Shown here one piece after another: positions 24,415 through 49,700 of a stretch of 64,000 nucleotides of DNA. Source of the DNA: Crambe crambe (lineage: Eukaryota > Porifera > Demospongiae > Poecilosclerida > Crambeidae); contig OZ004583.1 of assembly GCA_963924555.1 (NCBI GenBank), positions 5,737,501 to 5,801,500 on the forward strand, read 5' to 3'. The notes under the pieces are model-generated. The model was not told the DNA's origin. It did no database searches and saw only the letters and a list, made by a program, of their open reading frames with translations. A program made the position numbers and the translations under genes. How positions within the stretch are numbered: position 1 is the first letter of the stretch; each line of letters opens with the position of its first letter.

Positions 24415-24562
24415 GGTGATTTTTTAATTTTTTTAATCTAGCTAGCTAGCTAGAATAATGATATCAATAGCATTTTTTTATGACAAAATATTATAGACTT
24501 TTTATCATTGTAAAAGTATGTGCGCATGCGTCAATATTCGAAGCAAACTTGCTTGGCGCAAG

Positions 24563-26660: not shown

Positions 26661-27968
26661 AATGTGTTCACTTTGAGAATTATTACTTAATTATAATTAT
26701 TATTGTCATGTGATAATGTTATGTGATTACGCATGCGCGTATATATATACAACTGAGCATGCGCGTATGTAGCACTGCATCTGCAAGTAGCCATATCGTT
26801 TATTGAACAGTAGAAAGGAACAGTGGAAATCAAATTCTGTAAACATGTATCATAGTCTTCAGTCAACATCACATCTCATTCAAATTCTCTGCAGCAACAA
26901 GACTGCAGCCTATAGCTAAACACTTACTTTCTTTTGAGGATTGGAATCAGTTCTAAGTTTCTGCTACATGGCTTGTGGTAAATAAATACAAGCCCTTACA
27001 ATGTTAAGTGTATGCTTGTAAATGTAACTTTTAGCTATTACTAGTTCTTTCTGTTGGCAAGTAGCTATACCAGTAAAGGACATCTATCAACAGACTCTCG
27101 AGCTGTGGGTGCTAAACTTTTGAAATGGAGTATATAAGCAGAAATGGTCACATCCTGGAGAATGATAACAAGGTCTGGAATAGACATGCATGACCTTCAC
27201 ATTCCGAGTCCATGCTGCCTCTGATGTACTCTCCACTCCACTGAACCTGAAACGCTGGTGCTATACCAGGTTGATGCCAGATGTGAGCTTTGTAGCTCAA
27301 CCCCAATGGCTGTCCCCAGGCCCATTTTACCTGGAGACATAACAGTGTCTTCCTGAAGCTGGTGTCCTCCCTTAAACTACTTCTTCCACCAGAAGGGAAG
27401 ACCTACCGGGTGTAAGAGTTTCAGAAAACCACCCCCTCGCCACCGTACCTCCTGATATTCTCATAACATCAGCACGTCCTGACATTGTGATCATTCAGAT
27501 AAAGACACCTTCCTCATTGAACTTACCGTCCCTTATAATTCACCAGACTCCATCAAGAAGGCTGGCTGAATAGCAATTTTTGCATCCCACTCAATCTTTA
27601 TGGCCCATAGAGACTCATTTTGGAACACTGAACGCAATCTTCTCATTATGACTCAACATTCACTTTTGTTTTTTATCTCACTTTAGCTACATGTTTGTTT
27701 TTGTTTAGTTTTTTAATGTTTTCCCTTCTAACCTTACTTTGTAGCCTTGAGGCCTAGGGTAGCTTTTATTTTACACACTTTTGCTATCTTAATTCCAGTA
27801 TTCCATCCCATTCTGCGATTCTATTCACAAATAGACGAGACACCAATGCAGCTACAAGCTAGCTGGACTTCATTCCTTTTCATCATGGCATTCAAGGTGA
27901 ATAAAGATAATCACTGCTTCTAGCTATTGAATAGAATTGTAATAGTTATAGAGTTAACTAATATATAG
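26661..27968. other. Spacer, no gene supported
   Basis: Between the lectin start and the end of the large Roc-COR gene. ACGCATGCGCG-type NRF1-like strings occur at about 26731 and 26757, near the lectin promoter. Around 27200-27560 the base composition is less AT-rich and there are short broken open stretches, possibly a decayed element, but nothing I can name. Confidence 0.4.
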
Positions 27969-29054
27969 CTAGTCCAACTTTGTGATTTTAGCTGGAGGTG
28001 GCTGATCAGACTCTGCATCCTTATCATGCTATAACAAGAAAGGGGAAGCTCAATGGAGTTGAAATCATAGCTCATTCTAGAATAATACAAACCTGAATAT
28101 GTTGAACAGGAAGTGCAGACTGATAAACAGGAAGTGCAGACTGATCAGCAGAACTGTTGCCTTGCAGTGCTGGAATAATATATTATGGCATGCAAATGAT
28201 ATTAGTTAAATTTTATAGTGTCATAACTCTATAATAGTGCCCCATAAATTGTTTGGCTCTTCCATAATAATTATATTATGAGTCTGATCCTCAAATCAAA
28301 CTAAATTAGTGATATTTTTATGCTGGTTGCAGCCATATTCACTCCAGAAGATACTCACATTTCTTAATTTTTCCTGCTACTCCTTTGAGTTTGATTTTCT
28401 CGAGAGCTTTTATCAAACTGGCCCAAGTGGGTTGACCACTGGTGGCAACAACATTGTCAGCGCCATTTAGCCATCCTTCCACCAAATCCTCACAGAGCAT
28501 AGTCATCTTCTTGAGATTCGGCCAAAGCAATCCCAGAGCTGAACCAAGTTTAAGAAGCTCTTCTTTAGTCAGGTCAGATAAGTACTCAGTCACTTGAAAG
28601 TGATCCTTCATGCCTATGTAATGATGTATATAAGAAAAATAAAGATTCTGTACATAGTTAGTTACAGGTTTATAAATTTTGTAGCTAAAACACTCACCCC
28701 TATAAAGTTTAATGGGATTCATAAAACCCTTGAGAACCTATGACCTTCATGTATAAAAAATCTGACCATGCACCCAACCCAATGAAAGATTTGGCTGTAG
28801 ACTTGGATGTAGCTATTTAAATATACTAACTCAGTTCAGTATCAATGACTGCATCATGGGATGTGACATATTCCTGACTTGAGTGTCGAGCTGTGGTACA
28901 TAACAATACCATAAGTTAAAGGTTCTATGCAACTACTATGTTAATCAACTCCATACAAGTTTGGTCACAGTCTTTTAAACATCCAATTCACAGTGCATTA
29001 CCTTTATTAGTTAAAGGATGAGTTATTCTTCGATATCCACTTGACTTGAGATTC

Positions 29055-29090
<36 letters not shown>

Positions 29091-32000
29091 CACCATGTAT
29101 TACACTAGCTACTGACATGCTGACCTTTCTTTGGTCTGAACCAGGATAAGCAATCCTCAGATAAAACACAGCTCTTATGCTCACTTTCACAGTACATGAT
29201 GTAGTCGTCATCCTCGTAGTCTGGATCTTGGACTTGGTGGGTAGAGGAACATGAATCACACTTGATACAGAAGTAATGTTGGGTCTTCAGACTGTTGTAG
29301 TGCAGATCTTTTACCGAAGATTTGATACTTTTATCGACTATGTTGCGCATATCATTGCATAGATGGCTGATGTGAGGGCGACAAGACTCGCAACAAGATG
29401 GGTGCAAAACCATTTCTAGAAATGAAGACGAAAATTTGAGACTTACTCTGTCTTTAAACCGACCAACACTGAAGGATACTTGGTCTCTGAAAATAGAGTC
29501 GGGTATAAGCTCCCACTTAAGCTTGCTCTGGACTGTATTTGAAAGTAAAGTGTTTATTAAAACACCGAATATCCCTTTTGGGCAGTGATTGCATTCGAAC
29601 TCAATGTAGAGTGTGGGGATGTTAGAAACAAGTTCAGGTCTTTGAGCCACCTGGACATGGTTAAGGACACATGGGATGAAGTATCTGTCCTCTTCATTTT
29701 CTGATGAGGTAATTTGGGATATGATGCGGAGATGCACCAGTAATTTCAAGAATGAATTTGGATTGATGCCATCTTTTGCTCTTATCACTTTCATAAAAAC
29801 TGAAGCTGAAATAATGCCCCTATGCTTAAAATCCGAAAGCTCTTGTCGATAAAGCCGCTTAGAGGAAAATGTCTCAACAATGAGGTCTGTGACCTTATTG
29901 AAAAGCACTTGAGGTTCTCGTACGACGATGTTATGCAAGCCTTTTACGGGAAAATACTTGATCCTTCCAATTCGGGTGTGAAGAAATCGCAATAGGTGCT
30001 TCACTTGGTCTCTACTGATGCCATACTGAGCAGCTAGAGACACACATTCATCAAAAGAAACAATGCTCTTCTTCATATTTTCAAAATCAAGGCTGAACTG
30101 TAAGTAGCTGATAGGATAGTCAATGGTAAACTCATCTCGACCAATTACTATTTCACTGACTCTTGATCGGATGCGTTCAAAGTCCTCTTCACTCTTGCTG
30201 TAATTATCAACAGTGAACATCAACCTGTTGGATTGCTGATCTGCATACTGAACCAAGTGCTGGTATCCATGCTTACAAACTAGATCATTCAACTGTCGGT
30301 CTATCTCACTGATTTTCTCTTCAGCATTGGAACCAAGCAGATCCTTGTGTGTGCCTACGATGAAAACTAGAGGCTGATGGGTCTTGACTTCGCTTTGGCC
30401 AGTTACGTCCATGGCATCGACACTAGCAAGGCACTGCAGCAGAGCATCCTCTGTGCTGATGGAAGATACATATGAATTGATAACTGTTCTGTCTTTTTTT
30501 CGATACGATATTTTGAATTTGCTGCGGAGATCTTGATCGATGCGAAATAGGAAGAAAAATATGGATGGTCCAGATATCAGGAGAGGCACCATCTCTTGGA
30601 ACTCCACTTGACCACCAGTATCAGTCAAATAAATTGAATAGGAGTTCTTTAGATACCTTTGAACTCTGCTGTAGCCATATTTTCTTATTACAGATGAAAT
30701 GTTCTGGATTGATGGTGGAGGTGGTGGTTGCAAAAGTTGTCTCCTTGAGAGATCTACTCCATCACTTGTTAACATTTCTGAAGTGGCAGAGCCACTGGTT
30801 TGACATGGATTTGCAGACTGTGATACAAGTGGAGATGGTATTGGTTGAGGTGGAGCAATCGTAGTGGTGCTAGTCTGCACTGGTGATGCACTCTCACTAG
30901 CAGTGGATGGTGCAGGAGGAGGCACTGCTTTGGGTGTCATTGTTTTGGGTGTGATTGTTATGCTTTCCTTGTTCATTTGCCTCACAACAGACACCTCAAA
31001 CTCGGCTTCGGACCACTCTCCAGCCTGCAGTAGAACTGTAACTGATGCATGTTTGGCAGAAGAATCTTCTATTCCAACATCCACTATAACGACAGGTTCA
31101 CAGACACCAGTGGAGGGAGAGAAGTCCTTTAGTTCTTTGCGAACAAGGCGAGTGATTAACGAACTCTTTCCAGAACCAGGAGAACCTAGAAAGACAGAAT
31201 GTACTAATTTTCGTTTTATCACTCCAGATTTGTTGATGGCTTCTTGAATCACTTTGAGAAATTCTTTTTCATCTACTTCATCCTGACCAGAATCGTGGTC
31301 TCCTACAAGTATAGTAAGAAACCATTAATAAAATGTTTCTGGACAGATAACATACTGATGTGGTAACTATAATTAGTATATTAATCATTACTAGGCAACA
31401 TTTGACAGCAAGCAAGAGAGCAAGTATTTCTATAGCTTTTAGAGCTGATAGGCTCCAATTAATTTGTACTGAAAGACTGTGGATGATACTGGGAAAAATC
31501 TTCTAAGTTCATCAGCAGTCTTATAGAGGCACCTGCTAAACTGAATGTGACAAGCTATCAAGCTAGCACTATGAACCCAAGCCATCAGTTCTACACTTGG
31601 GTCAGAGAACCCAGAGACACCAGAGGTTAGCAATGAAAGGAAAGTAGCTGTCTCTAAAGTGGCCATGATTGATATGGACAGAGTCATAATCTAAGCAACA
31701 GTTAGCCTTCAGACTTTGGATTTTCTACTGTTAGATAGCCTAAAGAATCCTCTTTTGATATACTGCGAGTGCAAAAAATTTCTTCTAAATAATAATGCTA
31801 AATAGGGGTGGCCCCAAATTTAGCTGGACTATGACTGCAGCATCATATCAAACCAAGCCGTATGGTCCCAAAATCTATGCACTTTGACTGCAGCACATAT
31901 CAAACTGGGCTTGGATTGATACGATGTTGCAGTCAAAGTAGTACATAATCTAGCTAGATTTTTTGGGGCCATACGGCTTGGTTTGATAATTATGATGCAG

Positions 32001-35000
32001 TCATGGCCCAACTTTTACCAGTCAGATTTCATGACACATAATGGAATCCCCATACGAGTGGGGTCCAGTAACCTTCCATTTTAAGTAAACCAGATCACCA
32101 ACAGCAGACGTACAAAGAGGTTTCTTTGAATCATGCAATTGTTTCTGCATTAACTGTTGATTTTGAACTTTTGGTGTGAAATAGTAAATCAAGTCTGGAT
32201 CAAAGATGACGACCAATAAGAAGTTCTGCCGGATAGAACTGTCTTTGATACTTTTGATCCCCAATTTGAATGACTGGATTGTTAACAGGTAGAGGTAGCT
32301 ACAGGTTTAGCCCTGGAAATATGCTAGCCAGTATGGTGGAGGTGCAGCTGCTTAGGGAGCTCAAGCAGAAAGTGACCGAGTCAACTGTTCACCCCATCAA
32401 GAAGGACTTCATTGAAAGATTAAAAAGAAAAAAAAGTACTGAGGATGGTGATGTGAAAGTCTTGCCATGGAGAAAGCAAGGCAGACCACTTCTCCTTGGA
32501 GAACATTTGTACCATAGAGTTCAGTTATATTTGAAGAAGGTTAGGGATAAATCATTCAGTGAACCAATACAGCAGTTGCTAAAAGCGAGGTCAAAATAAA
32601 GTCCAAAAAAGAGAATATTTCAAACACGGGTTCCAGTTTAGCTAGACTTCGAGGGATAAAGTTACTCTAGCAAAATTCAAACCTTTTGATCACATGGCAA
32701 GAGCTCTTGATTCATTATAGTTCATTCAAACTGGCTGTTAGAAAACAGCTGCTAAAATCGGTCAATTTTTTTGGCTGCATTACACCTATGGGGGACACAT
32801 GTGGAGGAAGAAAATGTTTCCCATAGGCATAATACATGGAGCAAAAAAATATTTTCAATTCAATTTTGACTGGAGCAGTAGCTAGTTTCTGAAAAATGAG
32901 GACAGTATTCCACTGACTCAGCCAAAATGTGACTGGATTTAAAATTTCTTGCAAGTTGTTAGAGCCTGTTAAAGTTTAAAAGCCACATACAAAATGTACA
33001 TGAACTTTAATAATGAACCAAATTGGTTTTGATCTTGATAGGATTGATTCTGAATTCATAATAATTATTATGCTTATCTGCGTGAAATTGTACCTTTCAG
33101 AACAAAATCAACACCTGCTTTGAAGAAGATAATTATGTGTGTAGACCATGTTCTAATTATAAGAACAGTACTTGCTTCAAAACTTTTCAAAAAGTTTTCA
33201 GATTCATACCTTTGAGCCTGGTATCCAAGCAATAAAACATTTTAATATGAAGTTGATTAGTGTGTTGACCTGCTTTGAAACATTAGTTAGTGTGTCTGTT
33301 TGCTTCAACACTCATGGGTAGCTTTTCAAGCAAGATGTTATATATGATATAATATTCCACTGACACAGGTAGAAATTGCCAGTCTGCCAAATGGTACTAA
33401 ATGTACAATTTCAAGCAAGATGTTATAAGTTGTTAGAGCTTGTTAAAGTTTACAAGCTACATACAAAATGTACATGAAGCCTAATTTTCAAACCAAGATG
33501 ATCAAATTAAGATCTTGATATTATTCTGAAATCCATATAATTACATGCTTCAAATATGTTATCTGAGTGAAGTAGTACCTTTAGAACAGTGAGTCACTTC
33601 ATCAATGAGGGTCAATGGTATACTATTAACCCAGGTTAATAGGCATATGGAATGAGCGTGGGCAGGTTGCATAGGCACATGTAGGGGTGATATTCAAGCA
33701 GTGGTCAGACTGAGAAGCAGAAGGCAAGCGTATGATAGCAGAGCTGAAAAATTAACCCACCCGCCCACTTCCTGTGTAGCCTAACAAGGCTTGGGACCAA
33801 GTGCTGGGCACAGCATGGGTATTCACCATCCCAACATGTCTCATCTAAGCTGACTAAGTAGCAGAGGTGGGGCATGACCTGATATAGCAACCACATTGGT
33901 TGCTAGGACTACACCCATCCTGTCCACTAGCCTAACAAGGCTTGGGTCTTGTTAAGACCAAGTGCTGGGTATTCACCCAACATGTCTCACCCAAGCTGAA
34001 CTTGAGCAGCATAAAACAGGACAGGGTGGGACATAACCATATAGCTGGAAATATTGATGGGAATTATATTTACCATTTCATAAAATAATTTGACAGAAGG
34101 AAACTGTGCAAAATAAATAATGCGCGTGCGTTGCACATGTGTGCTGTGTACAGCTAGCTATCATCATTTAGCATGGATACTTTCAAGTTCTCTAGTTGTG
34201 TGAGGGGCCATCACGTCTAAGAAAGCGTATGAACTCCAGAAGAATTAGAGTGTAGAAGAGCAATCCTTATGCTGTTGCTGTTCTTAAGGCGGCTGCAATC
34301 GTTGGACACGTCCCTTGAAGAATTTCAGCCGCTTGTTCTCTCTTTCTTTACAGTGATGGCTTTGCAGGTTCAAGGCAGTACTGCTCTAATTTACCCCAGG
34401 GAAGGTCTATCAGTGTGACTTCTCTTCTTTGGTAGAATATATTTCAGCAAAGACACACAGTATGGCAGCCGCATGTAGTGGTGTGCAATAAATGGCACGC
34501 AATATGTGCATGTGTACATATCGCATGAACTTAATTAAACAATGCGATTTTTTGACGGTTTTATTTTTGGTGATATGATACTTAAACCGCCAAAGCATCA
34601 AATTAAAATCTTTGTATACATTTCCGGCCACACAGTAGCAACCACATCAGTTGCTAAGGGGGAATTGCAGCAAAGCACTCGAGCCCGTGCCCAGCACAGG
34701 TGTGTACAAGGGGGCTATATAATATTGTAGGCAAGATATTAAACAATCATACACCCTCATCTCTTTCTGTACATAAATATGCACAGTATGTGAAACGTAA
34801 TGAAACCATGCATGACTGTAATAGCAGCAACATTACCCCTTTAAGTTTCAATGCTAATAGGCAGTTATTGGTGTGTGTAAGTCTCACCTTTGACATACTT
34901 GGTGGTCACATCCTCAGCAAGTGCATCATAACCTGTACACCTGAGTGCCCAGGCCAAGTCATTCCAATCAATAATAACAGGGTTAAGACGCACCATGATC

Positions 35001-38000
35001 TCAGCTAAGGCTTTCTTTGGTGTAGTATTCTCATCGATTCTTTCCATTAGAAAATCAGAAAGAGGTAGATTTCGTGCCACTTTCTCCCAATCTTCCACTT
35101 CCTCCAACACCTTGTTTATTCTCTCAATGCTGAAGTTGGAATCTGTCAATGATGAAATGAAGATGTACAGGTATAATTATTCCAACATGATTACTCAAAA
35201 ACTAAGTGACTATCCCATGCACTGTAGAATGAGAATTAGAATAGTATTGTGCACATAGCTACACATCATACATGAGTCAATAAATTTCCCCTACAACATG
35301 TGCACACCTGTACTGATCATTCTGGCTATAGCTGTAATGGATCACTAAAAACAACTAACTCACCTCTAGTACAATAATCACAAGCTTTAATGGCCACATC
35401 GACTTCCACAACTATAATATCTTCTCCATAGAGTGCAGATGTAGCAATTGCCTTCCAAGTAGGTTGATCTGGATGGCTACTGATGTAACACATGGCAGCT
35501 GCCTTCACTTGCTGCTCCACACTGGGTATACAGGATATACGCTCCATTACTTCAGAGAATGGTCTGTAGTCACCAGAATCTTCCACGTTGGATATAATGT
35601 CCAATGGTGACTTCTTTGCACTCATCAGTACAGTTGTCAGGTTCTCAACTGTCATTGTGGGGTCTGCAGGGAAAACTTGATTACAGCTAGAACTGAATGG
35701 AAATAATGACCTATGACACAATAGCTACTTTAATCACTTAAAGGGAATTGTCTATGGAAGGGATAGTTTGTGTCATGAAACCATAGAGTCATTTTGGATT
35801 CCACTGTATCCCATATGAACCATACACTGCAATTTAGTTGCTATGGCATGTACACATGCTATTGAGATCTTATAACTCTAACAAAGCATGGAAAGGGTTT
35901 TAATAGAGGGTACAAAGTTGAATTCAAGTGATCCATATACACTGTTTGAGAATAAGTGTGTTCTAATTGTATTGCAGCCATACAGCTAGCTGATGGGATG
36001 TAATAGTTGACAGAGTCAGTCACTATGAAATGGAAACAAGTTCCATCAGTTTACACTCAACACTTAATACAGTTCTTAAAATAGTCCAGCTATATGTACT
36101 ATAATGGGAGGGGTCAAGTGAGAATCTGAGAATACAATCATCTAATGAATCAATCTGCCTGAGCCAATTACAAAAACTCTGAGGAGTATGCCATGGGTAG
36201 AATCTTAATAAAGATATTAGCTAGCACACAGTCAGTCAATTAGTCTAAAGTTAGGAGAGGTATGTGTGTAATGGAATAGGGGATTTCCCCTAAATTACCT
36301 GTCACTGGCTCTGCAAAGTTTCTGATGCTGTCAGCATACTTGCATCGATCAATTCTATCCATTATGCTTATGAGTTCTCTCCATGTAGTGATAGCATAAG
36401 CAGTCAGGAATTCGTCCCAAGAGTAGTAGTAGTAGTCATCATACTCGTCTATAAGTACATATGTATATTTCTGCACATTCTCAACAGAGAAATCTGATCC
36501 TAAAAGAGAATAATAATGTTACTTAGTCAGGATTCTAAGCATGCAATGTACGTATGCAGGGCCTAACTTTTTAAAACTCCAGGAACTATAATTTTAAGTA
36601 TCAGTTCTGATATTAGATAAGTATGAATGCTATTAATGCTACTATTATTATGCATATGAGAAATTTTATAGGAATCCCATTCCTTAGGTTATATAGGCTA
36701 ATGAGATTCTAGTGATCACATGGTCATACCAAAAAGATATAGTCCACTTAGATTTCACTTGGTAAGTCAAAAGACAACTCAAGAGTTTCTAAACTACAGA
36801 ATCTTTGCAACAGAGCTTGAAGACTGAAGACCCAAGACCAGTCCTTATTTGGAAGTAGTGGTAGCTAGAACAATAGGCCTGGACCACACTATCACAACAA
36901 TTTGAGCCTATTCTTGTTGCAAAGATTCTGCAAAACCCTGTATAGCCAGCCACTCACATCAAGATCATTACATTCCTGGATCCTATATGGATCATATCAA
37001 TACTACTAGAATTTCTTACACTGTTAGCTTACAAAGTATCAACAAGAAATGTATCTCTCACCATTAGGAAGGTACTTTGATGCCTGTTCAGCTGCAATCT
37101 CCTCCCCACAGTGAGACAGTGCTGTCACCACATTCCCCCAGGTCACATAGGGGCACACATGGACTAGGTGATGAACGAGGGCTCCTTTCTGATCGTGAGC
37201 AGACTTGATCTGTGATATAGTATGGTCAGCGATCCCCATGTACTTTGATATGGTCTTCCAGTCCTCCACCTCCTTTAATATCTCACTTAACAACTCAGCA
37301 GTAAATGTTGGATCTGCTAAGAGGAAAACGTAGTCTCAAGTGTATGCCCAGGAACAGTGATGACTACGTATGTCGTACTCATCACTTTATTTATATGTAT
37401 CATATAGCACTAAATTTTCATGGTTTTGCAATAGAAGTGTGAACCTCTAATTATTTTGCAATACCACCAAATCTGCAAAAAAATTACCCCATGAAAAATT
37501 CCTGCAATATGGTAGCTTACTGTCCCCTGACCTTTTGAGAAGTTAGTCATGGCACTCTCAGCAGCCTTCATCTCTCCAACTTCATAGAGCATTAGGGATA
37601 ATAACTTCCAAGAGGGACAACCATGACTGGTTATGTAAAGAGAGGCAGCAGCTCGTATCTTCTCTCCACTTAGGGATGAGATGCGGGAGCAAACTAATGG
37701 AGAATAGCCACCAATAGAAAACTCCTGTTTCTCCAGCACTGATGACACATCTCCCTCTATCTGCATGAGTACTGCTGCTACATTCTCTACACTCAAGGTG
37801 GATTCTACAGGAGTAAACACAGCATGTTGCATGACATGGATCATAAAGTACAACCATGCAGGTTAGGTGCTATTCAGATGGCTGCATGTATGAATGAATC
37901 ACACTCATCAAGATTTAGTGAAGTCTGCATGTGCTCATGTAGTCATCCTTGTATGTCTCATGCAAACATTTCTCATAAGATAATGCATGGAGGTAAAGTA

Positions 38001-41000
38001 TAGAGCTCATTAAGTTCGTATTGTGTAGCATTTTATTTTCAACTTTTTTGTGGATCTTAAAATATGAAAATGGAAATAAAACAAATACTCAAATCTTCCT
38101 ACCAGTGCCACCTGGCTGGGTACTGATACTAATTGTCAGTACTGAATCTGCAGTTGATTAAGTTTTAAGTTTTCTTGTGACTGTTAATTGCTCAGACTTG
38201 CCATTTTCATTCTGGGTGCACATTATTTAAAGTACTGTGCAGCAATTAGCTGGATTGATATTTGATACAAATGTAGTCTATAGTCAGAGCGGCAAGAAAA
38301 CCAGAACACACAAACACATTTGTATGAATATAGCCTGCTGCATAAGGGGTAGGTGCCAAGATTTGTTAAAATACTAGATGGTCAATCTGCAAAAGTTGTA
38401 CAGTGGAACCTCCAATAAAGGACCCTCCAAGAAAAGGACAACCTCCCAACAAAGGATGCTCTTTTGGGCCCCTTTCCCATAGCATTAGTACATTTTTAAC
38501 CTCCGAGAAAAGGATAGCCTCTCTGCAAAAACAAAGTGGCTGATCCCAAAGTGTCCTTTACTCGGAGGTTCCACTGTAATGAAAATTGAGCTCCTCCATT
38601 ACAAATTACTATGTAGTATCTATAGGTGGGCATTAATATAAGGGGTCATGATGGCAAAATAAAGTTATCTTGGCAATGGACTCTTCCAGATGATCATCAC
38701 CCTGACATGCTTCAAACAATGTTCAAACTTATGCAACTTTCTCAGGACTTCAAGCTAAAGTCAGGTCACACACATCAGGTCACACACAGAGAGACCTGAA
38801 CTCTGGGCTATAATAATATCAGCTAACAATACAGTCATGCATGATGATCAAACCTTGTGGTGGCTCAGCAAACTTTCGTATGTTATCAGCAACACTCCCT
38901 TCTATTGAATCGAGAGCCCAAATAAGTCTCCTCCAGGAAGAAGGTGCTCCCTTTCCTTCTAGCCAGGCATTGAGAACGAATTCAACACTAGATGCAGGAG
39001 CATCTTTCACTGCTAATCTATTTTGCAAAAGTGCTGCCTCTGCCTCCAGTATTTGTGGGATGTACTTGGTGATGTTAGGTAGTGTCAACTGTGGGACTGC
39101 ATGGGAACACAAAATAGTAGAACACATGATCACTACATGATCCAGTCAGAACATAATACCAGACAGTTCATCATTGCAGTGCATACCATGGTTAGTACAT
39201 CACTGCTCACTAAACATAGGGATAGTACATTACTACACACTGTACTTCACTCCACACCATATAGGAATAGTACTTCAGGATTTTATGTAGGGGGAGGAAT
39301 TATAGGGAGGTTTGTGAGGTTATAGGGGGGCAGGAAGTCTTGATGTCACTATTATTTTAGACCTTGGTTACATGTGATTTGTGTATGTAATATTAGCAAG
39401 TTTAACTTTGATGTGTGTACACTGAAAGTATGTGCAACACATTTACATAGTTCTCTTGATACACACCCCTAAGGAAGATATGGGATCATAACTGCATGAC
39501 AAGGAGATGCTGAACAACCTGAACACTTTAGCTAATATCTGTCTTCTATTGTTGTTGGAATAGAAAGACAGACCACAGATGAAGATAGAGAAAACTCACT
39601 TACTGAGAGAGAAAAACTTGATTAAACTTATTAATGAAAATAGCTAGTGATAGAACTAACAGATAATGATTTAGAAAAAGATGTATGGATGTATGGAATA
39701 AAAGGAAGACTAGTTGTGTGATTTTACAAGGGGGAGAAACACTCTTGAAGAAACCCAGATCACTGCACACCATATAGGGATAGTACATCACTGCACACCA
39801 TATAGGGATAGTACATCATTACACACCATATAGGGATAGTACATCACTACACACCATATAGGGATAGTACATCACTGCACACCATATATGGATAGTACAT
39901 CACTGCACACCATATAGGGATAGTACATCACTACACATCATATAGGGATAGTACATCACTACACACCATATAGGGATAGTACATCACTGCACACCATATA
40001 GGGATAGTACATCACTGCACACCATATAGGGATAGTACATCACTACACACCATATAGGGATAGTACACCATAATATAGGGAGACTCTCAGCTCTTCAAAT
40101 TATGAGCATTTCAGGTGACTCTTAATAAGTGATAATTTTATAAACCACTTACTCTGATCAGGATGGACTGGTGTCACCACTTGGAACACACGAGGAGGAC
40201 GCACTTGGAACACAGGAGAAGAAGGACCCACTTGGAACACAGGAGGAGGAGGAGGAACTGATAAGACCTATACATAATTATGGTAAAACAGTAACTTGAA
40301 TCCTACGTATCTTTCCTAAATCCTTTCATGAAAAATGCATCAAAACCTTCAATTGAGTTATTGACTGACCTCTGGTCTGAAGGGATTGGTCCACTGAGGG
40401 TTTTGCTGGAAGAGGGAGGAGTCAACTGGAGAGGAAAAGGAAGTGGGTGCAGACCTCACTAATTGGGTGGGTGGAGTCTGGAGTGGGAGCTGTGAGAATG
40501 GGTTGAGGTGGGTGGGATGAAACGGGCCCTGTGGGTGTGGTGGAATGGACAGGGGTTGAGTGGAGAATGAGGAAGGTGGTGAGGTGAGTGAAGGAGGCAT
40601 ACATCCAGTGAAGTGAGTAGGTTGGAGGGACACCTGTAACAAGTTTAATTGAAGTCATGTGTCATACATAGACCACCAAGTTATAACGAATATTCTATTT
40701 CTAATTTCACAAGTGAGCGCAAAAAATTTCTTCTAGGTTAAGTAGGGATAGCCTAAAATCTAGCTGGGCTGTATAATGTACTGCAGCCTCATATGAAAAC
40801 AATCCCTACTTTTACATCCACTGCCTATAGCTAGCTATGGCAGTTGTAAAAGTAGGGATTGTTTTCATACGAGGATGGAGTACATTATACAGCCCAGCTA
40901 GATTTTAGGCTATCCCTACTTAACCTTTTTATTTAGAAGAAATTTTTTGTGAACCAAATTAAACCACATGACTTTTTGATGGTTTTATTTTTGGTGATGT

Positions 41001-44000
41001 GATGCTTAAATTACCAGCTATACGGTATGTCCATCCCTTGAGTCTCTCATTCATTAAAGCTTTTCCATTACAACTTGATTTACTATGTATAAAGATCTCC
41101 TCCTCCCCCCTCCCACCAACCTCGTCCTGGATTGAAAATAGGGAACCAGGTGTCTTGGGTTTATGTTCTGTGTCTATTACTACTTCCAGTTATCTGGTGA
41201 CCCTTGGGACTTGTCCTGGTTACAGGGGTGGCAAGTGACCCAAATTTCAGGGATCCAGATTAGAGGGATATAGCACATTTGCTCCAAAAACATTTATAAC
41301 ATGAAATCAGGATCCAGTTATCATGAGTATGAAAATACACGTGCTTAGTCATGGCCATCACATCCAGACTTATCTAACCACCATTGTCTCTTTGTAGTAG
41401 TGTATGCTCCAAGAGCCTTTGCTACATGAATATGATCTGATTACTGGGAGTGTGCAAGCAAATATAAGCAGAACTCTAATACTAGTTTAGCACACACAAA
41501 CATGTACGTAGGTGGTCTGACATATACTGTATGGCCGGAAATATTGGCAGAAATTAAATTTAATGGATTGCTCTCATTCAGGAAAAATTAAAACTTGGTG
41601 GATTTAATATTGGTGGAATACTTGCACACGTGCGAGCACATGGAAGTGGTTATAAAGGGTACAACTTTATATACCCCTCCCTCCCTCCCGAACTTTGTAA
41701 GTTTGTCTGATGGGGCCTGGTTTCAGGTAGGTGTGGTTGGCATCTGATGCCTGTGGGCATGCATATAATCACTGGACATGAAGTCTATTCCCTATAGGAG
41801 CTAATACTGTGGAAGCATCACAATGCATGATAGAATTATTATGTATGTATGTCACAAAAATCATACACTGGTCAGGAGTTTCACTACTCCAACTCCATTG
41901 CACTTTTGGAGCAGCCAATCTCCACAAACCAAAGGTCATAGAGAGGTGATAACACAACACATTTAAACTGCTCTAGCCAGCATAATTATTCAGAATCCAG
42001 TGAGTAGCATGTGAAAATTCCTAATTGGAGCACACCAAAAGGGGGCTAGGGATTCTATATTCAAGTCTTATACTTCCTAAGATGTATTCAATTTCACATA
42101 AGCAATACCTTGGTTGAGTTATGCATGGCTGGGTCAGTTGTCAATTTTGCTATGGGGAAAGTAAATCTTTGAGCATGCATAACTCATGAATGTAGTAACC
42201 TATTAGTGATATTATCATTATGGCTACTGTTATGGTTTGAATATTGAACCCCCTAGACCCATTACAACACTACTAGTTTGGAACCCATGAAAATTCATAA
42301 CATTTACTACACTTTTCATGTGTTCACCAAAATGTTAACATTTCATAGCACGAGTATTATGTGAAAAAGGAACGAAAAGGCAATGAATTACCAAATGAAA
42401 AAATACAATTTTGCATATGGTCCATTGTGGTGAGTAAAGCGAGTCCCCTACTAGGAAGAGATTTATATATTTCCGTTCTATCATTGGAATTTCTTTGTGA
42501 ATTTGTTGACTGACCTCTTTTCTGATGAAAGGTGGTGGATTGGTCCACTGAGTGATATGCGGTGTGGGCCTCACTAATTGGGTGGGTGGAATCTGCTGTG
42601 GGTGGGAGTAAGTGGGAGGAGTTGGGCCCTGAGGGTGTGGTGGAAGGGACGGGTGTTGAGTGGAGAATGAGGAAGGTGGTGAGGTGAGTAGGGAGGAGTG
42701 TGAAGGAGGCATATGTCCAGTGAAGTGAGTAGGTTGGAAGGAGATCTGTAATAAGTTTAAAGTCATGTGACATACATAGACAGTTAAGTCATTACAGCCT
42801 GCTCAACTTCATAAGTGAGCAATACGATGTGGACAGTGTACATGTAATTATGTTATGTCCATCCCTTGAGTCTCTCATTCATAACTGTGTACTTTTTTGC
42901 CTCGGCAACGAAGTGCCGAGGCACAGTGCTGAAGGCAACTATGGTGGTACATTATTAGTAGCACGTGCAAATAGTTATACACATGCGCATGACCAAGCCA
43001 CATGTACATGCATGTATAAGTGAGAAAGTAACAGCAGGCTGGGCAAGTTAACGACTGTCTGAGAGCAAACAGCGAGAGCAGAGTGCACAACCTCAAGATT
43101 TTATGAATGTCTGAACAGCAAGAGTGAGCCTTAAATAGCGAATAACAGAAGCTACAAAGTCGAGTTGAGACTCTGAGTTGTGAGAAAACAGAAGGAGAGC
43201 CAAGCTGAAGACCAGGCATGTTATAATAACAGAAAGTAGGCAAGAAAACCAACATGAAAGCCATAAATAGCGAGACCAGAGGGTACAAAGCTCAAGATCA
43301 TCTAGCAGAGCCTGCAAGAAAGCCTTAAGAACAGAAGCTACAAAGTCAAAAGTAGGCTGAGAAAGCTGAAAGATACCCAAGCCATAGCTATGACCAAGAG
43401 TTTGTAGCCAATGGTTAACCAAAACTCTGGTTAGGCCAGTGTTAATGTTAATGACATTCATGTTTCTAGTCAGGATTTTTCCTCACAACCATGCCCGGGG
43501 GGGGGGACATTGTCATAGGATGCTAAAAAAAAAATCAACTGTATGGTTACTGGGCCCATTTTCGTATGCAACCATTATGAGGTTAAGTAACTGTTACATT
43601 GCACTGGGGGTAGCATCATGAAGGTATGGACGGATATAAAAGTATGCTTTATTTCCCCCCTCCCCCAACTGGATTTCATCCTCCCCCCTCCCACCAGGAT
43701 TGAGAATAGGGAACCAGGTGTCTATATAAATAGGGAACCAGGTGTCTATATAAATAGGCTAGAAATTCACTGGATTCTGTTTATTCAAGTACTACTTACA
43801 GTTATCTGGCCACCCTTGGGACCTGTCCTGATTAGAGGGGTGGTCTCATTTTGTGGGTAGATTTGTGTTGGAAATAGCTACTTAAATATTGGGACATTTA
43901 CAAGTGACCTTATAGGGTGGTCTAATTTGGTCCAGATTAGAGGGAGTTCACTCATGCTACAAAAACCTTTGTAACATCAACATGATCCAGTTTATTAGGA

Positions 44001-46750
44001 GTATGAAAATACATGTACTTACAAAGACTCAGTCATGGCCAACACAATGTATGGGACTTCAGAATGTTACCTATCTACATCTAAGCATACATAGCATAGA
44101 ATTGTCTGTCTTTAAGTCTTTGTAGTAGTGTATGCTCCAAGAACCTTTGCTACATGAATATGATCTGATTACTGGGAGTGTGCAAGCAAATATAAGCAGA
44201 ACTCTATAAAAGTTTAGCATAATATATGGGACTTAGGGAATTTCCCCACTTCCATATACATGGTCACACTTAGCCTCGTTCCCAGGCCCATTAAAATAGG
44301 GCCTGGTATACACTGATTGCGCATGCGCAAGATTAAATGGTTATAATGACAGCACGTGGTTATTATGACGTAGAAATCAATACTATTAGTATTACTAGGC
44401 TTGTCAGAGTATCCCTCCACTATAGATCTTCAGGATCACAAAAGAAAGTACTGTCAGTGCAGAGGTTCGAGTCTGAAGCAAGAGATACCGTTTTGAGATG
44501 AGATGACTACCGATTTTATGCCTCTCAGTCTCTTCCTAAGAGTTTAAACCTGTCAACCATCAGAGCGATGAGTGGAAACACTACCAGCACAGCGCTGGTC
44601 TTCAAACTGCCAGCCAGGAAGCAAGCCAGCCAGCCAGCCAGCCAGCCAGGAAGAGAAGCACTTGGTAGCACAGACTCTTCCCAACATCTGGTTTGCGAGA
44701 CTACCTGTGGGGAGACACACACGAAGACATCTTTACTCTCGTAAATGGTTGAGTGGACAGGTGCTGTTCTTCTTTCAAAGCAAGAATGCTCCAAAAAACG
44801 ATCTTAAGAAATTAACCACACCCATTATTCTTACGTAGTAGTAAAGGTATACGGATGACATTACGATGTAGTATACGGAGGCCCTGGAATGCCGGGGCAT
44901 TTTAGCGCATGCGCAATCAGTGTATACCAGGCCCCTCCCTCCCTCCCCCCCCCCCCCCCCCCCCAAAAAAAGCCTGGAAACGAGGCTAGGTCACACTGAG
45001 AAGCTTATCAATCTCACAAGTATGCTATTGGTCAAATTGAAGTGGGTAGAACATGAAATCAGGGCTATAGCTGCAGAGACCATATGGATGACCTACCTGA
45101 GGTGGGTGTGGAGGATGCATGTGAGCCGTAGGAGGTTGTAATGTAGGATCGAGTGTTGGATGAAAACCAGGAGTAAGAAGTCCAGGAGGAGGGTCTGGAA
45201 GGATACAAAGTAAACAAAAAGAGGTTGTCTCTATGAGAACTTGTCTACAACCAAAATATCAAGTTTGCCTTTTTAACTTTGACCTTACTATGTATATGGC
45301 CTCTCATAGAGTAGTAAAAACCACACCCAATAGCTACACCCACCTGTTCAATTTCAATTGGGTCTATCATTTAAAGTCATTCAATACTTGATGACCATTA
45401 CCTAATATCATTGATCAACCTTAGCAGCTTTAATGGAGACTCCGACCCTGTTACTACTTACTGTTTGGCATTGAAAGTGTTGGAGGAGACGAGTGTAGTG
45501 AAGCAGAGACTCCTTCAGGGAGACAAGTGGGAGTGAGGGTTTTTGATAATGGGACTGGAGGGTTATAAGACATATGAGAAGTCAAGGGGACAATATCACA
45601 ATTATTCATTAAGAAATTGCAAAAATAAATGATTGGGTGATAATAAGGTGGCAGTACAACTTTTATCTTTGGCATAGTAATAGAACAATCCCTACACTTT
45701 GTTTAGCTACATTTTGCTCAATCTTAGGCCAGGCAAAGTTGATTCCTTGTTCCGCATCACATATTTTCAGTGAGGGAGGGAGGTCACAAATTGAGCCCAA
45801 TAAAAGCTGTATTTTGTGGGGGTGTGGCTCCTTTAGTGAGGGAGGTGTCCAGAAATACATTTTTTAGGTCTCACCTTCAAGCTTCGGTTTTTTAGTACAA
45901 GGTAGGTCTTCACTCACTTCAGTTCCTGAATCAGGAAATGATAATAAATTGGTAACTAGGTATGAAACCACCACACCAGAAGAAGATTGCTGTGATACTT
46001 ATGGCATCATCAATATCGTATAGCACTCTATTTAAGAGGCACTAATATTTCAAGGATAGCTATTTCTAAATATTTCGTGGAATGATTTTAAACCCCACCT
46101 ACAAAATGAAAATAATAATTATAGTGTGCACACATAGAATTGAATGCTTTTGTAGCTCCCCTTGATAGTAGCTGCTGTCTCACTCCCAGAATTTGCCAGC
46201 ATAGTGAACGTTCTACTGCTCTTCTTCCTATTTCAGCCTTTTTATTTGACGAAAATCTAGTGTATGGCCCTCTGGTGGTAGATCCCTGCTTCAAAACGGC
46301 AGAGATTTTTGAGTTTGCTGCTTCAATAGAAGAGGACGAACTGTCAGTGACATTTTACCACTAGGATCTAGATTTGTAGGTTGCTTTGAAGGATTTTTAG
46401 AGCTAAAATAACGACAGAGCATGACAGCTGCATGGCTACTTAGGCAAAATTATTCGAGGGCATAATTTTTGTTTTTTGAGCAAAATCCATGAAAACCTCG
46501 AAAATAAAGAACCTCAAAAGTAAAGCGCTATACGGTAGATTCACTGTATAGTTAACTAATAGGATGAGGTTATGTGATCTCTCTGACTATCCATCATTGT
46601 TCCATTCATAGCCTATGGAGTATTGTAGTCACAAACTACATTCCACAACCAGCTGATACCTTTATCAGCTCCTCTCCTAGTCTTTGGTCCAGGGTTCAAT
46701 TCTACATCCCCAGAGAACAACAGTATACCTATAAGGAACAATACTGGCAT
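27969..46750 (-). CDS. 2A-leader, multi-Death-like, Roc-COR GTPase protein (19 exons)
   Basis: Exons: 46660-46750, 45875-45925, 45462-45554, 45097-45194, 42515-42745, 40370-40633, 40153-40267, 38851-39096, 37532-37804, 37062-37313, 36299-36499, 35364-35663, 34888-35142, 29125-31302, 29002-29055, 28831-28890, 28359-28613, 28093-28169, 27969-28028. Every junction keeps phase; about 1,717 residues. Order: hydrophobic leader with DVELNPGP (15-22); Pro/Gln-rich region with KKPKLE (to about 314); six modules in the order C-B-A-C-B-A (315-824; A is Death-like, VEDWxxI/V), a Roc-type GTPase with P-loop GSPGSGKS (about 862-869), a Pro/Ser/Thr insert, DTGGQ and GTHKDLL; a COR-like region; a Death-like domain (about 1588-1673). 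Likely an intracellular immune or death-signalling switch. The single-gene model is my inference; transcripts could split it. Confidence 0.75.
29056..29086 (+). repeat. (GA)n at a splice acceptor of the Roc-COR gene
   Basis: In the transcript the repeat reads (CU)n directly followed by the AG of exon 29002-29055, so the microsatellite itself serves as the polypyrimidine tract. Confidence 0.85.
31738..32016. mobile_element. Palindromic non-autonomous element in a Roc-COR gene intron
   Basis: Starts with GAGTGCAAAAAATTTCTTCT, an end shared with the elements near 40711 and 48413. From about 31801 two arms pair: CATATCAAACCAAGCCGTAT on the left and its near-complement ATACGGCTTGGTTTGATAAT on the right. 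No coding frame. Confidence 0.7.
32270..32599 (+). mobile_element. DNA-transposon transposase fragment (pogo/Tigger-like HTH part)
   Basis: About 109 codons antisense to the host gene. Segments ESTVHPIKKDFIERLKRKK, STEDGDVKVLPWRKQGRP and LLLGEHLYHRVQLYLKKVRD resemble the N-terminal DNA-binding part of pogo/jerky-like transposases, in which a KKxGRPLLLGEELDxxV motif precedes the catalytic domain. The frame ends soon afterwards and no DDE core follows, so it is a relic. Family assignment is from memory of the motif. Confidence 0.55.
33640..34060 (+). repeat. Local direct duplication in the same intron
   Basis: Segments with CCTAACAAGGCTTGGG, CCAAGTGCTGGG and CCCAACATGTCTCA occur twice (about 33779-33845 and 33931-33990), followed by related GTGGGGCATGACC/GTGGGACATAACC strings. 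Surrounding intron sequence 31303-34887 shows no other gene. Confidence 0.75.
34888..39096 (-). repeat. Tandem duplication of a three-exon Death-like block
   Basis: Exons 38851-39096 (C1), 37532-37804 (B1), 37062-37313 (A1) are repeated as 36299-36499 (C2), 35364-35663 (B2), 34888-35142 (A2). Pairs share entry motifs and structure: A, LxEVEDWxxI/V...; B, TxSVENVAAVLM / TMTVENLTTVLM ... CPSWK/QPTWK; C, SWRRLI..IRKFAEPPQG / TWRELI..IRNFAEPVTG. B and A copies lie about 2.15 kb apart. All borders are phase 1, so block duplication keeps frame. Confidence 0.8.
38401..38576. mobile_element. Tc1/pogo-like MITE
   Basis: A 176-bp element with inverted ends CAGTGGAACCTCC and GGAGGTTCCACTG flanked by TA on both sides, as expected of Tc1/mariner-pogo elements. 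It contains paired AAAGGACA/TGTCCTTT strings. It lies in the intron between the C1 and B1 exons. Confidence 0.88.
39770..40075 (+). repeat. Tandem repeat, about 28-bp unit, eleven copies
   Basis: Unit contains ACCATATAGGGATAGTACAT followed by CACTGCAC or CACTACAC. Diverged copies also occur near 39185-39260. Intronic to the Roc-COR gene. Confidence 0.93.
40370..44220. repeat. Tandem duplication of a proline-rich exon with its intron
   Basis: Exon 42515-42745 and exon 40370-40633 are copies: both begin QPTHFTGxMPPS, share SPPSSFSTQ, PPHPQGP, PPTQLVRxxP and QWTNP, and end at GAG|GTCAGTC. The similarity runs into the introns: ATGTCCATCCCTTGAGTCTC, ATAGGGAACCAGGTGTCT, and AGTAGTGTATGCTCCAAGA occur in order after both exons, up to about 41490 and 44220. 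The second copy is longer because of extra sequence around 42890-43600. Confidence 0.85.
40711..40950. mobile_element. Long near-perfect palindromic MITE
   Basis: Arms of about 105 bases pair almost perfectly around a short loop (CTATAGCTAGCTATGG): AGTAGGGATAGCCTAAAATC on the left, its complement GATTTTAGGCTATCCCTACT on the right. The outer ends read GAGCGCAAAAAATTTCTTCT and AGAAGAAATTTTTTGTG. In the host pre-mRNA it would form a long hairpin. Confidence 0.88.
44271..44988. mobile_element. Non-autonomous TIR element with 9-bp target duplication
   Basis: Ends TAGCCTCGTTCCCAGGCC and, reversed, TAGCCTCGTTTCCAGGCT. Perfect 9-bp direct repeats GGTCACACT lie at 44262-44270 and 44989-44997. Subterminal inverted strings include GCGCATGCGCAA and a C18 homopolymer near 44947. 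No transposase frame. It sits in an intron of the Roc-COR gene. Confidence 0.9.
46080..46375 (-). mobile_element. Transposase N-terminal fragment (pogo/Tigger-like)
   Basis: Minus-strand frame with SSSIEAANSKISAVLKQGS (adjacent frame) then GPYTRFSSNKKAEIGRRAVE, the helix-turn-helix start common in sponge and cnidarian pogo/jerky-type transposases. It breaks off after about 40 codons. It lies in intron 1 of the Roc-COR gene and could belong to the same family as the fragment at 32270-32599. Confidence 0.5.
46660..46750 (-). other. First exon with 2A-like ribosome-skipping peptide
   Basis: Ninety-one bases encode a short hydrophobic leader (LFLIGILLF) running straight into SGDVELNPGP, which matches the 2A consensus D-V/I-E-x-N-P-G-P exactly; skipping would fall between Gly21 and Pro22 (about 46687). 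The donor after AAAG|GTATC is phase 1 and joins GA-ACT of exon 2 in frame. The frame is open upstream to 47116, so the start at 46750 is a choice, made because it yields a signal-like leader. Such leaders are known in some invertebrate NLR-type proteins and at the start of certain non-LTR retrotransposon ORFs; no reverse transcriptase follows here. Confidence 0.75.
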
Positions 46751-49700
46751 GTTGGAGTGGGACTTTCTCACTACCCTCCTCCAAAGTCGAGTCTTCCTCA
46801 AGCAGTTACTCAAGAGGTGTTTGACAGCTGTACGATCATAATTAACTTGCCACTCCCCCTCATCACACCATTGCCACAGCAGAGACACAATCAAAGCAAA
46901 CCGAAAGAATAATACGCTGCCAGAACAAGATGACATGCTCGTGGCATTAGAATTAGGATATGCTTGCAGTAATTGCGCACGTGCAGAATCTGAGCATGCG
47001 CAAAAATAGCGGGACTTTAAAAATAAAGTGTATGTTGTAGTAATAATATGTTGATGGAAACATAATACTTCAAAAATGACCGATGTCCGCCTGTTATTTT
47101 TAGCTCTGCATACCACTCAGGTTACAGGTATTATGGGGAAGAGTCTGACTAGTGAGACTAATTTGCCTGACTAATGCACAAAACGCTGCTACAGTGAGAG
47201 GTGCCGGTAAGCACTACTGGCAGCCCGCAACAATGACGTATGAGCAGAGATGCATATGGAACAAGGACACTTGAAATGAAATGACAATGGGTCGTCTGAT
47301 GAGAAGTTCAAAAAGAAGTAAGACCAGAGAACAGATATTTTCCTAATGGTGACTAGATTCACATAGGTAGTTGTACAAAACATTATCCTCGCTTCATGAA
47401 ACTCGTGTTGCAATGTTCGAGAATTTAGTGAGACTACTAAAGCTGGGCTGTTCTTGATCAGAACGCTAGCTTTCATTTCTAAATAATGAACACCTCATGG
47501 GCAGATCATGAACTTGAGCATTACTTACCATTCAAAGTGTACCAGCCGTCCATAGCTAATAGGTACCTAGACTAGCTTAGTTCTGACCTCTGAAGAAATG
47601 CTTTTTGTTGAGAACTTCAAGAATTCGAGAGTCATAATAAGTTTTTACACATGCACGCGTTATGCTTAATAGCTACTTTGTAGAGCTGACTCTACTGAGG
47701 AAGCAGCTTTTTATCTGAGTGAATTAGATGCTAACACACTGCACAAAATGCTACACATTCAATCATCATGACATGGAACAAAGCTATAGTGCGGCCCAAT
47801 TTTGAGAACAAGAAACCATGAAAAAGTGTGTGCTTCCGTGTTTAGTCATTCAGCCTCCAAAATTCTCCTGCATGATAAGAATGTGCATAAAATACACATA
47901 GCAATGTTTTCTTAGAAAATCCAACTTTATTTTATATTAGTCCTATGGAAGGTCATAGGTCATCCCTACATACGTAGAGAGTGCTATCGCACTCTCTGAT
48001 ATCAGTTACATATATATGATGCGCAGCGATGCGCATCGAGCACGTGCATTAGCAGCTCTAGCTCTCTAGCTAGCTAGCCAACATAACTTCAAGCTCTACT
48101 ACAGTACTAAAGATAAATAGACAGGCTCAGGCTCGCAGTCACTACGCAGTAATGCTACACCGTGAAGAGAGTGCTGATGCTTCTTGGCCGTCTTTGTCAA
48201 CAAATCAAGCCCATGCAGAGAAGATAAAAACAACAAAGACAATGTACACAAACTAGGTGATCGTTAGAAGTGCCAAAGAGAGAACCATGTTGAAGGAGAA
48301 TCTAATGAAAGAACACATACTTCAATCAAGCTATGCGTGAGAATCATTCAAAATGGCAGTTTGAAAGCATTGAACAGCAAGAATACTAGCTGTGTAAATA
48401 CCAACCTTACAATGAGCGCAAAAAATTTCTTCTAAATCAAAAGTGAAGTAGTAGGGATAGCCATAAAATTCAGCGCTACATTCCTATCACTCCTAGCCCT
48501 CCTAATTTTAATAACCACGCCTCCCAACTCTTCACTCCCCCTTCAGCAATAAGTAACCACTACCCGTACCCATCACCAAACTCAAGAATCACAGCAATAA
48601 TATTATTACAAAATTACTATTCCTACTTCACTCCTAAGGAGGCCTAGGAGTTTTTTTTTAACTTTTTTTACTTTTAGCAAAGATTTTAAACAAAATTTGT
48701 GTAGTTGGAGGTGCACACACTGGCATGATAAAGTGAGCAGACTAGCTATACGTACAGCCATGTAGGATGAGCATCTGTACTGAGGAGTGGGGGGGGGGGG
48801 GGGGGGGGGGGGGCTAGGGCTAGGGCTAGGGCTAATATATGCAGGCTTGCATTGATACATTTTGAGGCCATCCCTTTTTGCACTCACTATTTCCATTCTT
48901 TTTCTTTGTAATTTAGCTATAGCTATGACAATTCACTGAACACTTTCAAGGTATTTTTGTTGCCTGTTGTCTTGAGGGAGGAGAGTATGACCACCTTGAA
49001 GGAGTGACTGCAGCATAAAAGCTTTATTGTAGAATACTGTCTGATCAGAATCACTAGCTAAACACATTTATATAATGGCTGCTGAGATTTGGTTGTCTTG
49101 CTTGAGGGAGGAGAGTATGGGGGGTGAGCATCTGCAGTGCAAATGAGCATTGCTATAATGAAAAGCGCTGAAGTGCTAACCCTCTGCGCACACTATGTGT
49201 GTGTTTGTGGATATTGAGCAGAGATGTTTTAATCGATAAAGCATTCAATACTGTTGAGCTAGCTAGCAGTGTCTGTACTACAGACTCCACATTCTCATTT
49301 TGAATTATCGGATGTAAAAATATACTGCTTGGAGGACTGCACAGATATGATTAAGCATGCAGGTAATACTGCAGCAGCTAGATAATGCATAAAGCCGTCG
49401 TAGACTTGTAACTAAAGATACTCCAGCTATCTGAGATTTATGCTGTTCTAATCAACTCACCTTGTAGTATAGCCTAGATGAAGTAGGTAATGGTCGGCAG
49501 CACAGAGTGTACATTATATGGAGTATAGGCTATATAGTACACAGCTGGAATCGTGCCTTTTTTCTGGAGTAAAGCCTTTCTAGTTTTAATAAATAGCTGC
49601 AGCCAGTAAGTCTGTACACTGATCTGAAATTATTATTATGAACAAAAGTCAATTTTAGATGTCGTTTTTTTTTCTCGTATGTTAGCGAATGAATTTTAGG

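Follow-up and report, generated by a model that had tools for sequence, protein, structure and literature searches.

A tandemly arrayed ROCO gene family with putative Death-type modules and variable patches in the sponge Crambe crambe

What does a sponge gene encode that appears to join a 2A-type leader, a row of Death-like modules and a GTPase, and what might its product do? We addressed this question at a locus of Crambe crambe in a window of 64,000 nucleotides (the whole stretch of DNA analysed, C5:5737501-5801500 in a 143-Mb assembly, C5 being contig OZ004583.1). A sequence-only reading had proposed a single minus-strand gene of 19 exons without phase conflict, and this model was largely borne out at sequence level, with AG/GT borders where expected and agreeing phases at the coordinates given below. 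Splicing by hand from the proposed start at 46750 gave a coding sequence of 5,151 nt and 1,716 aa with 0 internal stops. The start itself had to be revised: its methionine is absent from both paralogs compared (at 4.56 Mb and 6.3 Mb on C5) and the upstream frame is kept in both, so we moved it to the ATG at 46936, which is present in the two paralogs together with the frame after it (indels of 9 and 12 nt). The protein thus probably begins 62 codons upstream of 46750 and has 1,778 aa. The leader lies in exon E1, modules D1 to D6 in E8 to E13, the Roc-COR switch in E14 and a terminal module, D7, in E17; the other exons are:

45875..45925, minus strand: E2, short basic/acidic exon, placed by splice signals and phase, with a look-alike in one paralog seen by eye
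45462..45554, minus strand: E3, low-complexity exon, 74% match in two paralogs, whose exon is 42 nt longer
45097..45194, minus strand: E4, proline-rich, 73% match with the same borders in one paralog and more matches on C5
42515..42745, minus strand: E5, proline-rich, 89-96% matches at six further places on C5
40370..40633, minus strand: E6, proline-rich and E5-like, 69% and 86% matches in two paralogs
40153..40267, minus strand: E7, proline-rich, 82% and 59% matches in two paralogs
29002..29055, minus strand: E15, short exon, placed by splice signals and phase only
28831..28890, minus strand: E16, short exon, placed by splice signals and phase only
28093..28169, minus strand: E18, short tail exon, placed by splice signals and phase only
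27969..28028, minus strand: E19, last exon, ending in TAG, placed by splice signals and phase only

Fourteen exons (E1, E3-E14 and E17) have a counterpart in at least one paralog. Matches were counted for these exons only, matches of short exons being mostly chance, and the E4 row of the four-gene comparison, which contains a chance piece from gene D, was left out. Among 11 copies, the window gene included, the six module exons are open between their splice sites in 64 of 66 cases, the remaining two being E13 in copies where it runs off the end of the DNA compared. An open reading frame at 46091-46354 was rejected as exon 2: it misfits the frame when spliced by hand and has no Pfam match at 0.001. 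In the intron between E7 and E8, a minisatellite with a unit of roughly 33 nt was seen by eye at about 39750-40080.

The gene belongs to a large family. A query with the Roc-COR exon returned at least 69 matches (62 of 646 candidates scored), among them at least 19 close loci at 78% identity or more, all on C5, and a looser family at about 38-53% on C3, C12, C19, C15, C17, C14, C6 and C1 and elsewhere on C5. By the coordinates listed, D1-D2-D3-D5 stand in this order upstream of Roc-COR at 16 or more of the 19 close loci; the other parts listed are the 2A-type leader (at least 11 loci), the proline-rich exon (at least 9), D6 (at least 9), D4 (at least 2) and D7 downstream (at least 14). D4 was found in all 11 copies read when the search was bounded by splice sites. 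Among the matches listed, nothing stands upstream at two of the 19 loci and the leader alone at one. Four of the close loci deviate: one is interrupted by a stop in frame, another is divided between two frames, a third is partial, and the middle of a fourth is rearranged and partly repeated. A query with D1-D6 gave 88 listed matches, all on C5 (84 of 178 candidates scored). Within the window, 63453-63710 on the minus strand is the D7 exon of the next array member, whose Roc-COR lies at C5:5801690, so the window contains the end of a second paralog.

The model might also have fused two or three neighbouring genes (leader and proline exons; modules; Roc-COR with D7), and several features would suit this: in-frame ATGs lie near the starts of E8 and E17, the E17 methionine is invariant in 13/13 rows, the intron between E13 and E14 is 3.6 kb long, E15 and E16 are unsupported, and tandem duplication of adjacent genes would also preserve their order. 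We nevertheless consider a fusion very unlikely, as phases match at all joins and the order is common to 16/19 loci. Furthermore, E14 of the window gene has no methionine before its P-loop and must therefore be spliced to something upstream; such a methionine is absent from nine of 15 close loci (window gene and its near-identical copy included) and stands at the start of the open frame in the other six. The 3' border of E14 is G|GT in 15/15, and the tails that reading through this border would add are unlike one another, which led us to reject read-through in place of splicing.

The hydrophobic 2A-type leader claimed for the N-terminus is present, and longer after the correction of the start:

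46660..46936, minus strand: E1, leader with two hydrophobic stretches and a 2A-type motif; frame and splice border kept in 2/2 paralogs
46685..46708, minus strand: 2A-type motif DVELNPGP, residues 77-84, DVEVNPGP in two paralogs; candidate skipping site by sequence

The motif follows the D(V/I)ExNPGP pattern of N-terminal 2A-like leaders, and DVELNPG/P has the known 2A form. Skipping at this site would allow one mRNA to give a separate 83-residue leader and a cytosolic receptor, and failed skipping would leave a leader-bearing form routed to membranes, i.e. dual targeting. In sea urchin, N-terminal 2A-like sequences are reported to serve as both recoding and signal sequences (PMC4981915). The sea urchin NLRs described there are likewise a large family of immune type whose N-terminus has a 2A-type motif together with a hydrophobic stretch; those proteins, however, combine NACHT with LRRs behind a leader of 26 residues, whereas here the switch is Roc-COR and the leader has about 83 residues (PMC4981915). 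Elsewhere on C5, at 9049632-9049994, 80 nt separate a match to the 2A-type leader from a Pfam Death match, both in open frames of 251 aa, and similar leader/Death pairs occur at 9012910, 9022677 and 9038859.

The proposed GTPase with a COR-like region was strengthened on the COR side, where COR-A exceeds its Pfam cut-off as expected of a ROCO protein, while Roc is represented by its motifs and a profile match below the cut-off:

29125..31302, minus strand: E14, the Roc-COR exon; 25/25 relatives match COR-A and Roc
31160..31186, minus strand: P-loop GSPGSGKSS, most positions invariant in 25/25 rows
30608..30622, minus strand: DTGGQ motif, invariant in 25/25 rows
30341..30352, minus strand: THKD motif, invariant in 25/25 rows
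29663..30115, minus strand: COR-A region, 39.8 bits against a Pfam cut-off of 35.3

Pfam Roc scored 23.1 bits under a cut-off of 27, with sub-threshold Roc matches in 25/25 relatives, and in the comparison of Roc with solved structures no relative fell below an E-value of 0.02. The 25 relatives are the window gene and 24 of 30 loci; the window's own locus and its near-identical copy were left out, as were a locus with a stop and three that are partial. Purifying selection acts on Roc-COR (pN/pS 0.30 in 15 genes), and the corresponding value for D7 is 0.47 (10 genes). The gene scored 12.2 bits for NACHT against a cut-off of 26.7, which does not make it an NLR, and the ten exon pieces scanned gave no match to a protein kinase or to ankyrin repeats, the parts that a DAPK would have. 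Because COR-A lies above its cut-off, the Roc motifs are present and D3 and D6 match Death, the sequence supports a nucleotide-switch ROCO protein with Death-type modules. DAPK1 and other animal Death-ROCO proteins likewise carry Roc motifs followed by COR-A, and Death-type modules, in one protein, and N-terminal death domains in ROCOs are mentioned in PMC11378527. Unlike in DAPK1-type proteins, kinase and ankyrin parts are absent from the ten scanned pieces, six modules stand ahead of the switch and one behind it, and the modules are patch-variable. Two Roc-like matches on the plus strand, near 21.8 and 22.8 kb, were considered as related genes and rejected; they are probably the front of a Ras-like gene, because the open reading frame just downstream (24097-24414) matches Ras.

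Six Death-like modules and a terminal one had been claimed, and the profile matches distinguish between them:

38854..39096, minus strand: E8, D1, with hypervariable patches
37532..37804, minus strand: E9, D2, with one small variable patch
37062..37313, minus strand: E10, D3, Death, conserved
36299..36499, minus strand: E11, D4, with hypervariable patches
35364..35663, minus strand: E12, D5, with hypervariable patches
34888..35142, minus strand: E13, D6, Death, with a small variable patch
28359..28613, minus strand: E17, terminal module D7, Death/PYRIN resemblance weak

For D3 and D6 the Death assignment stood: Pfam Death matched in all 14 members scanned (drawn from 20 available exons; best 1.2e-6), the window's own D3 (19.9 bits) and D6 (16.2 bits) both lying under the curated cut-off of 22.6. 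Against solved structures the best values for this type were 0.026 (THO complex subunit 1), 0.095 (TRP channel) and 0.19 (FADD), and an NCBIfam scan of D3/D6 gave nothing above chance. No Death-type profile match was obtained for D2 and D5, and D1 and D4 are putative Death modules at most, the D1 type having matched no Death-type Pfam family and being weakly linked through a profile comparison of D1 with D7 (89% over 36 columns). With hhalign, D2/D5 reached 53% over 19 columns with D7 and 59% over 35 columns with D3/D6, the other three of the six comparisons between module types giving 0.5-5%. D7 in turn resembles the PIDD Death domain weakly (E 0.2-0.33), and among 13 members of its type one matched Death (0.018) and one pyrin, both weakly. 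A match of D1 to ubiquitin (best E 2.1e-11) was taken as chance, being a sum over tandem ubiquitins; single chains gave E 0.34 and 1.7. Within genes, D2 resembles D5 at 34-39% and D3 resembles D6 at 28-32%, and in one paralog a 30-residue stretch of D1 is similar to D4, so that the row appears to consist of two copies of a three-module unit (D1-D3 and D4-D6). A large lineage-specific expansion of proteins with several Death-like domains is also reported for Amphimedon, with one to three such domains and TRADD-N (PMC8195603); in our case, by contrast, TRADD-N (PF13820) is absent among the Pfam matches of the exon pieces and the switch is Roc-COR.

The stronger finding is the diversity of patches within these modules rather than the domain layout, and one window alone could not have revealed it. 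We compared pN, pS and 150-nt intron flanks in 11 copies (nine for E13). Divergence was high in D1 (E8: pN.115, pS.144, flanking intron.021), D4 (E11:.149,.099 and.045) and D5 (E12:.115,.101 and.009), and the values were.052,.044 and.047 for D2 (E9),.016,.019 and.057 for D3 (E10) and.080,.073 and.073 for D6 (E13). pN exceeded intron divergence in 54 (E8), 44 (E9), 10 (E10), 47 (E11) and 54 (E12) of 55 pairs and in 27 of 36 for E13; the pairs are not independent and the copies are related, so p-values are guides. Segregating columns were in excess over one neighbouring intron in E8, E11, E12 and E13, with no excess in E9 (p 0.2) or E10 (p 1); E13 stands above the neighbouring intron 12-13 and not clearly above its flanking introns. 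Patches delimited in one half of the copies showed pN.266 and pS.218 in the other half; the remaining parts of the module exons gave.048 and.053. They make up 28% of E8, 12% of E9, 0% of E10, 27% of E11, 23% of E12 and 6% of E13, and the small patch of D2 (pN.241, pS.158) lies in an exon which as a whole is not above introns. Patch variability is thus clear in D1, D4 and D5, slight in D2 and D6, and absent from D3. Positive selection in the patches is not proven, because their pS is nearly as high as their pN.

Splice-site anchors, applied without a frame rule, placed 63 of 66 module exons, and all 63 either equal the window exon in length or depart from it by a multiple of three, whereas in four of the five introns the lengths fall into all three classes modulo 3, and in the fifth into two. 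The kept frame, together with the conserved D3 and Roc-COR, speaks against pseudogenes or relaxed constraint as the cause of the variability.

The modules are furthermore mosaic across the array. Four-gamete conflicts were found in 171 of 378 informative pairs in E8, 27 of 55 in E9, 2 of 3 in E10, 118 of 253 in E11, 210 of 703 in E12 and 89 of 325 (27%) in E13, although such conflicts could also stem from recurrent mutation. Distance matrices of five modules (8-10 genes, E10 and the near-identical copy left out) were uncorrelated in 10/10 comparisons (r -0.40 to 0.19, p 0.18 to 0.97), and the nearest relative of a gene shifts from module to module. Whole introns of the module cassette differ by.009-.038, versus.335 for the intron flanks of E14 (four genes), indicating that the cassette has been homogenised relative to the switch half. 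Between the window gene and its near-identical copy at a distance of 168 kb, 32 of 10,754 sites differ outside the cassette (0.3%) and 9 of 3,167 in the cassette introns; in the module exons the differences number 25 of 243 in E8 (10%), 7 of 273 in E9, 4 of 198 in E11 and none over the 807 sites of E10, E12 and E13 together. The duplicated block takes in 24.4-27.4 kb (98%) and 50-53 kb (99%) of the window but not 13.5-16.5 kb, and is either a recent segmental duplication or a misplaced haplotype; if it is a misplaced second haplotype, the difference in D1 would be allelic and no less striking.

How can this diversity be explained? One account takes the patches as a by-product: frequent conversion would keep the cassette uniform, and long-standing module variants, or the effects of a local mutational bias, would circulate neutrally in an ordinary Death/ROCO signalling scaffold that has no diversified recognition. 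The strong mosaicism would suit it, and so would a patch pN/pS of only 1.22 and a patch pS far above intron divergence; indeed, with pS nearly equal to pN, a neutral conversion or local-mutation account keeps a place. We think it unlikely, given that the patches are confined to certain segments of certain modules while D3, the other exon parts and the introns are alike, and that every length change keeps the frame.

We hold with moderate confidence that this tandemly arrayed, recombining and diversifying ROCO family encodes intracellular recognition or assembly receptors. The reading builds on the observed array, exon order, variable patches, mosaicism, Roc-COR constraint and motifs, and the layout, with several mosaic modules carrying variable patches ahead of a constrained nucleotide switch, is by analogy that of a diversified receptor. 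The two three-module units would form the specificity region, with patches (strong in D1, D4 and D5, small in D2 and D6) exchanged between paralogs, possibly through gene conversion, whereas D3 and Roc-COR are constrained. A ligand, or a matching partner module, might cause Roc-COR to dimerise and to switch between its GTP- and GDP-bound forms, and D7, a type that also precedes NACHT, may recruit NLR-type partners. Our confidence is no higher because D2 and D6 are weaker, D2 as a whole not exceeding introns and D6 doing so against one intron only, and because several loci look broken: at least four of the 19 appear broken or incomplete, and three have no listed D modules.

The sequence-only reading had gone as far as a nucleotide-controlled platform for cell death or immune signalling. 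The ROCO protein with Death-type modules stands, and an immune-type role gains support from the tandem array, from patch-variable, recombining modules beside a constrained switch and from the D7 type upstream of NACHT; cell death was inferred, and the ten exon pieces scanned with Pfam contain no effector domain.

The patches might also be homotypic tags, by which matching modules of the same or neighbouring cells co-assemble, so that the family would mark identity, not microbes. Death-type modules usually work by self-assembly, and the many paralogs with mixed module combinations would fit. We regard this as quite unlikely, since an intracellular tag would have to meet that of another individual, although the leader might route a form outward. 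A bolder version of the receptor reading, which we consider unlikely but worth stating, is a recognition system with a Death-type variable region: as many as five of the six modules would carry patches that arise by targeted conversion or mutation, are shuffled across the array and are read out by a conserved ROCO part. Such a system could underlie self/non-self recognition genetically, and the combination of patches would differ from copy to copy and perhaps also between the haplotypes of individuals.

If the receptor reading is true, candidate intracellular receptors would include a second large class alongside the NLRs, and sharp patch differences between neighbouring copies are what would be expected of a family recognising microbes or self/non-self. 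In immune proteins, Death domains of the adaptor type usually form the conserved end that passes the signal on; here the Death-type modules seem to be the end that diversifies, and the switch is a ROCO GTPase instead of NACHT. Specific exons and patches are now named for testing. In a search of titles and abstract openings, with subscription journals mostly outside its coverage, we found no published description of such a system in an animal. A comparable layout is that of the brown algal LRR-ROCO genes, whose LRR exons are reported as shuffled and positively selected: there too a ROCO switch stands beside shuffled, diversified, exon-encoded repeats in proposed immune receptors (PMC11378527). 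The repeats in brown algae are, however, LRR exons in dispersed genes, whereas here they are Death-like modules in arrays (PMC11378527). Both this and the sea urchin 2A parallel are analogies, not tests.

At the genome-wide level, COR-A exceeds the Pfam cut-off at 149 places or more (150 of 339 candidates scored), which are exon-level places rather than annotated genes. Many of them sit in arrays on C1, C3, C8 and C11, pointing to a very large ROCO repertoire; a brown alga has up to 47 ROCO genes, and brown algal ROCO sets are described as larger than those of other reported organisms (PMC11378527). A D7-like place lies within 4 kb downstream in at least 32 of the 109 COR-A places compared (of 150). 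When 150 listed D7-like places were compared with 64 of 103 NACHT places, a D7-like module was also observed to precede NACHT by 1.7-2.2 kb, on the same strand, at no fewer than eight places, seven on C9 (7.13-7.53 Mb) and one on C16 (2.09 Mb). Judged by sequence, Roc-COR proteins and NLRs thus have a Death-like module type in common.

Around the window gene, the block from about 24.4 to at least 53 kb that recurs at 98-99% some 168 kb away includes a lysozyme-like open reading frame at 24500-25084 on the plus strand (Phage_lysozyme, 3.1e-12) and a jacalin-like lectin open reading frame at 25641-26690 on the minus strand (2.9e-33). A further open reading frame of 471 aa at 55446-56858 on the minus strand carries an integrase core domain (Pfam rva_4, 2.4e-82).
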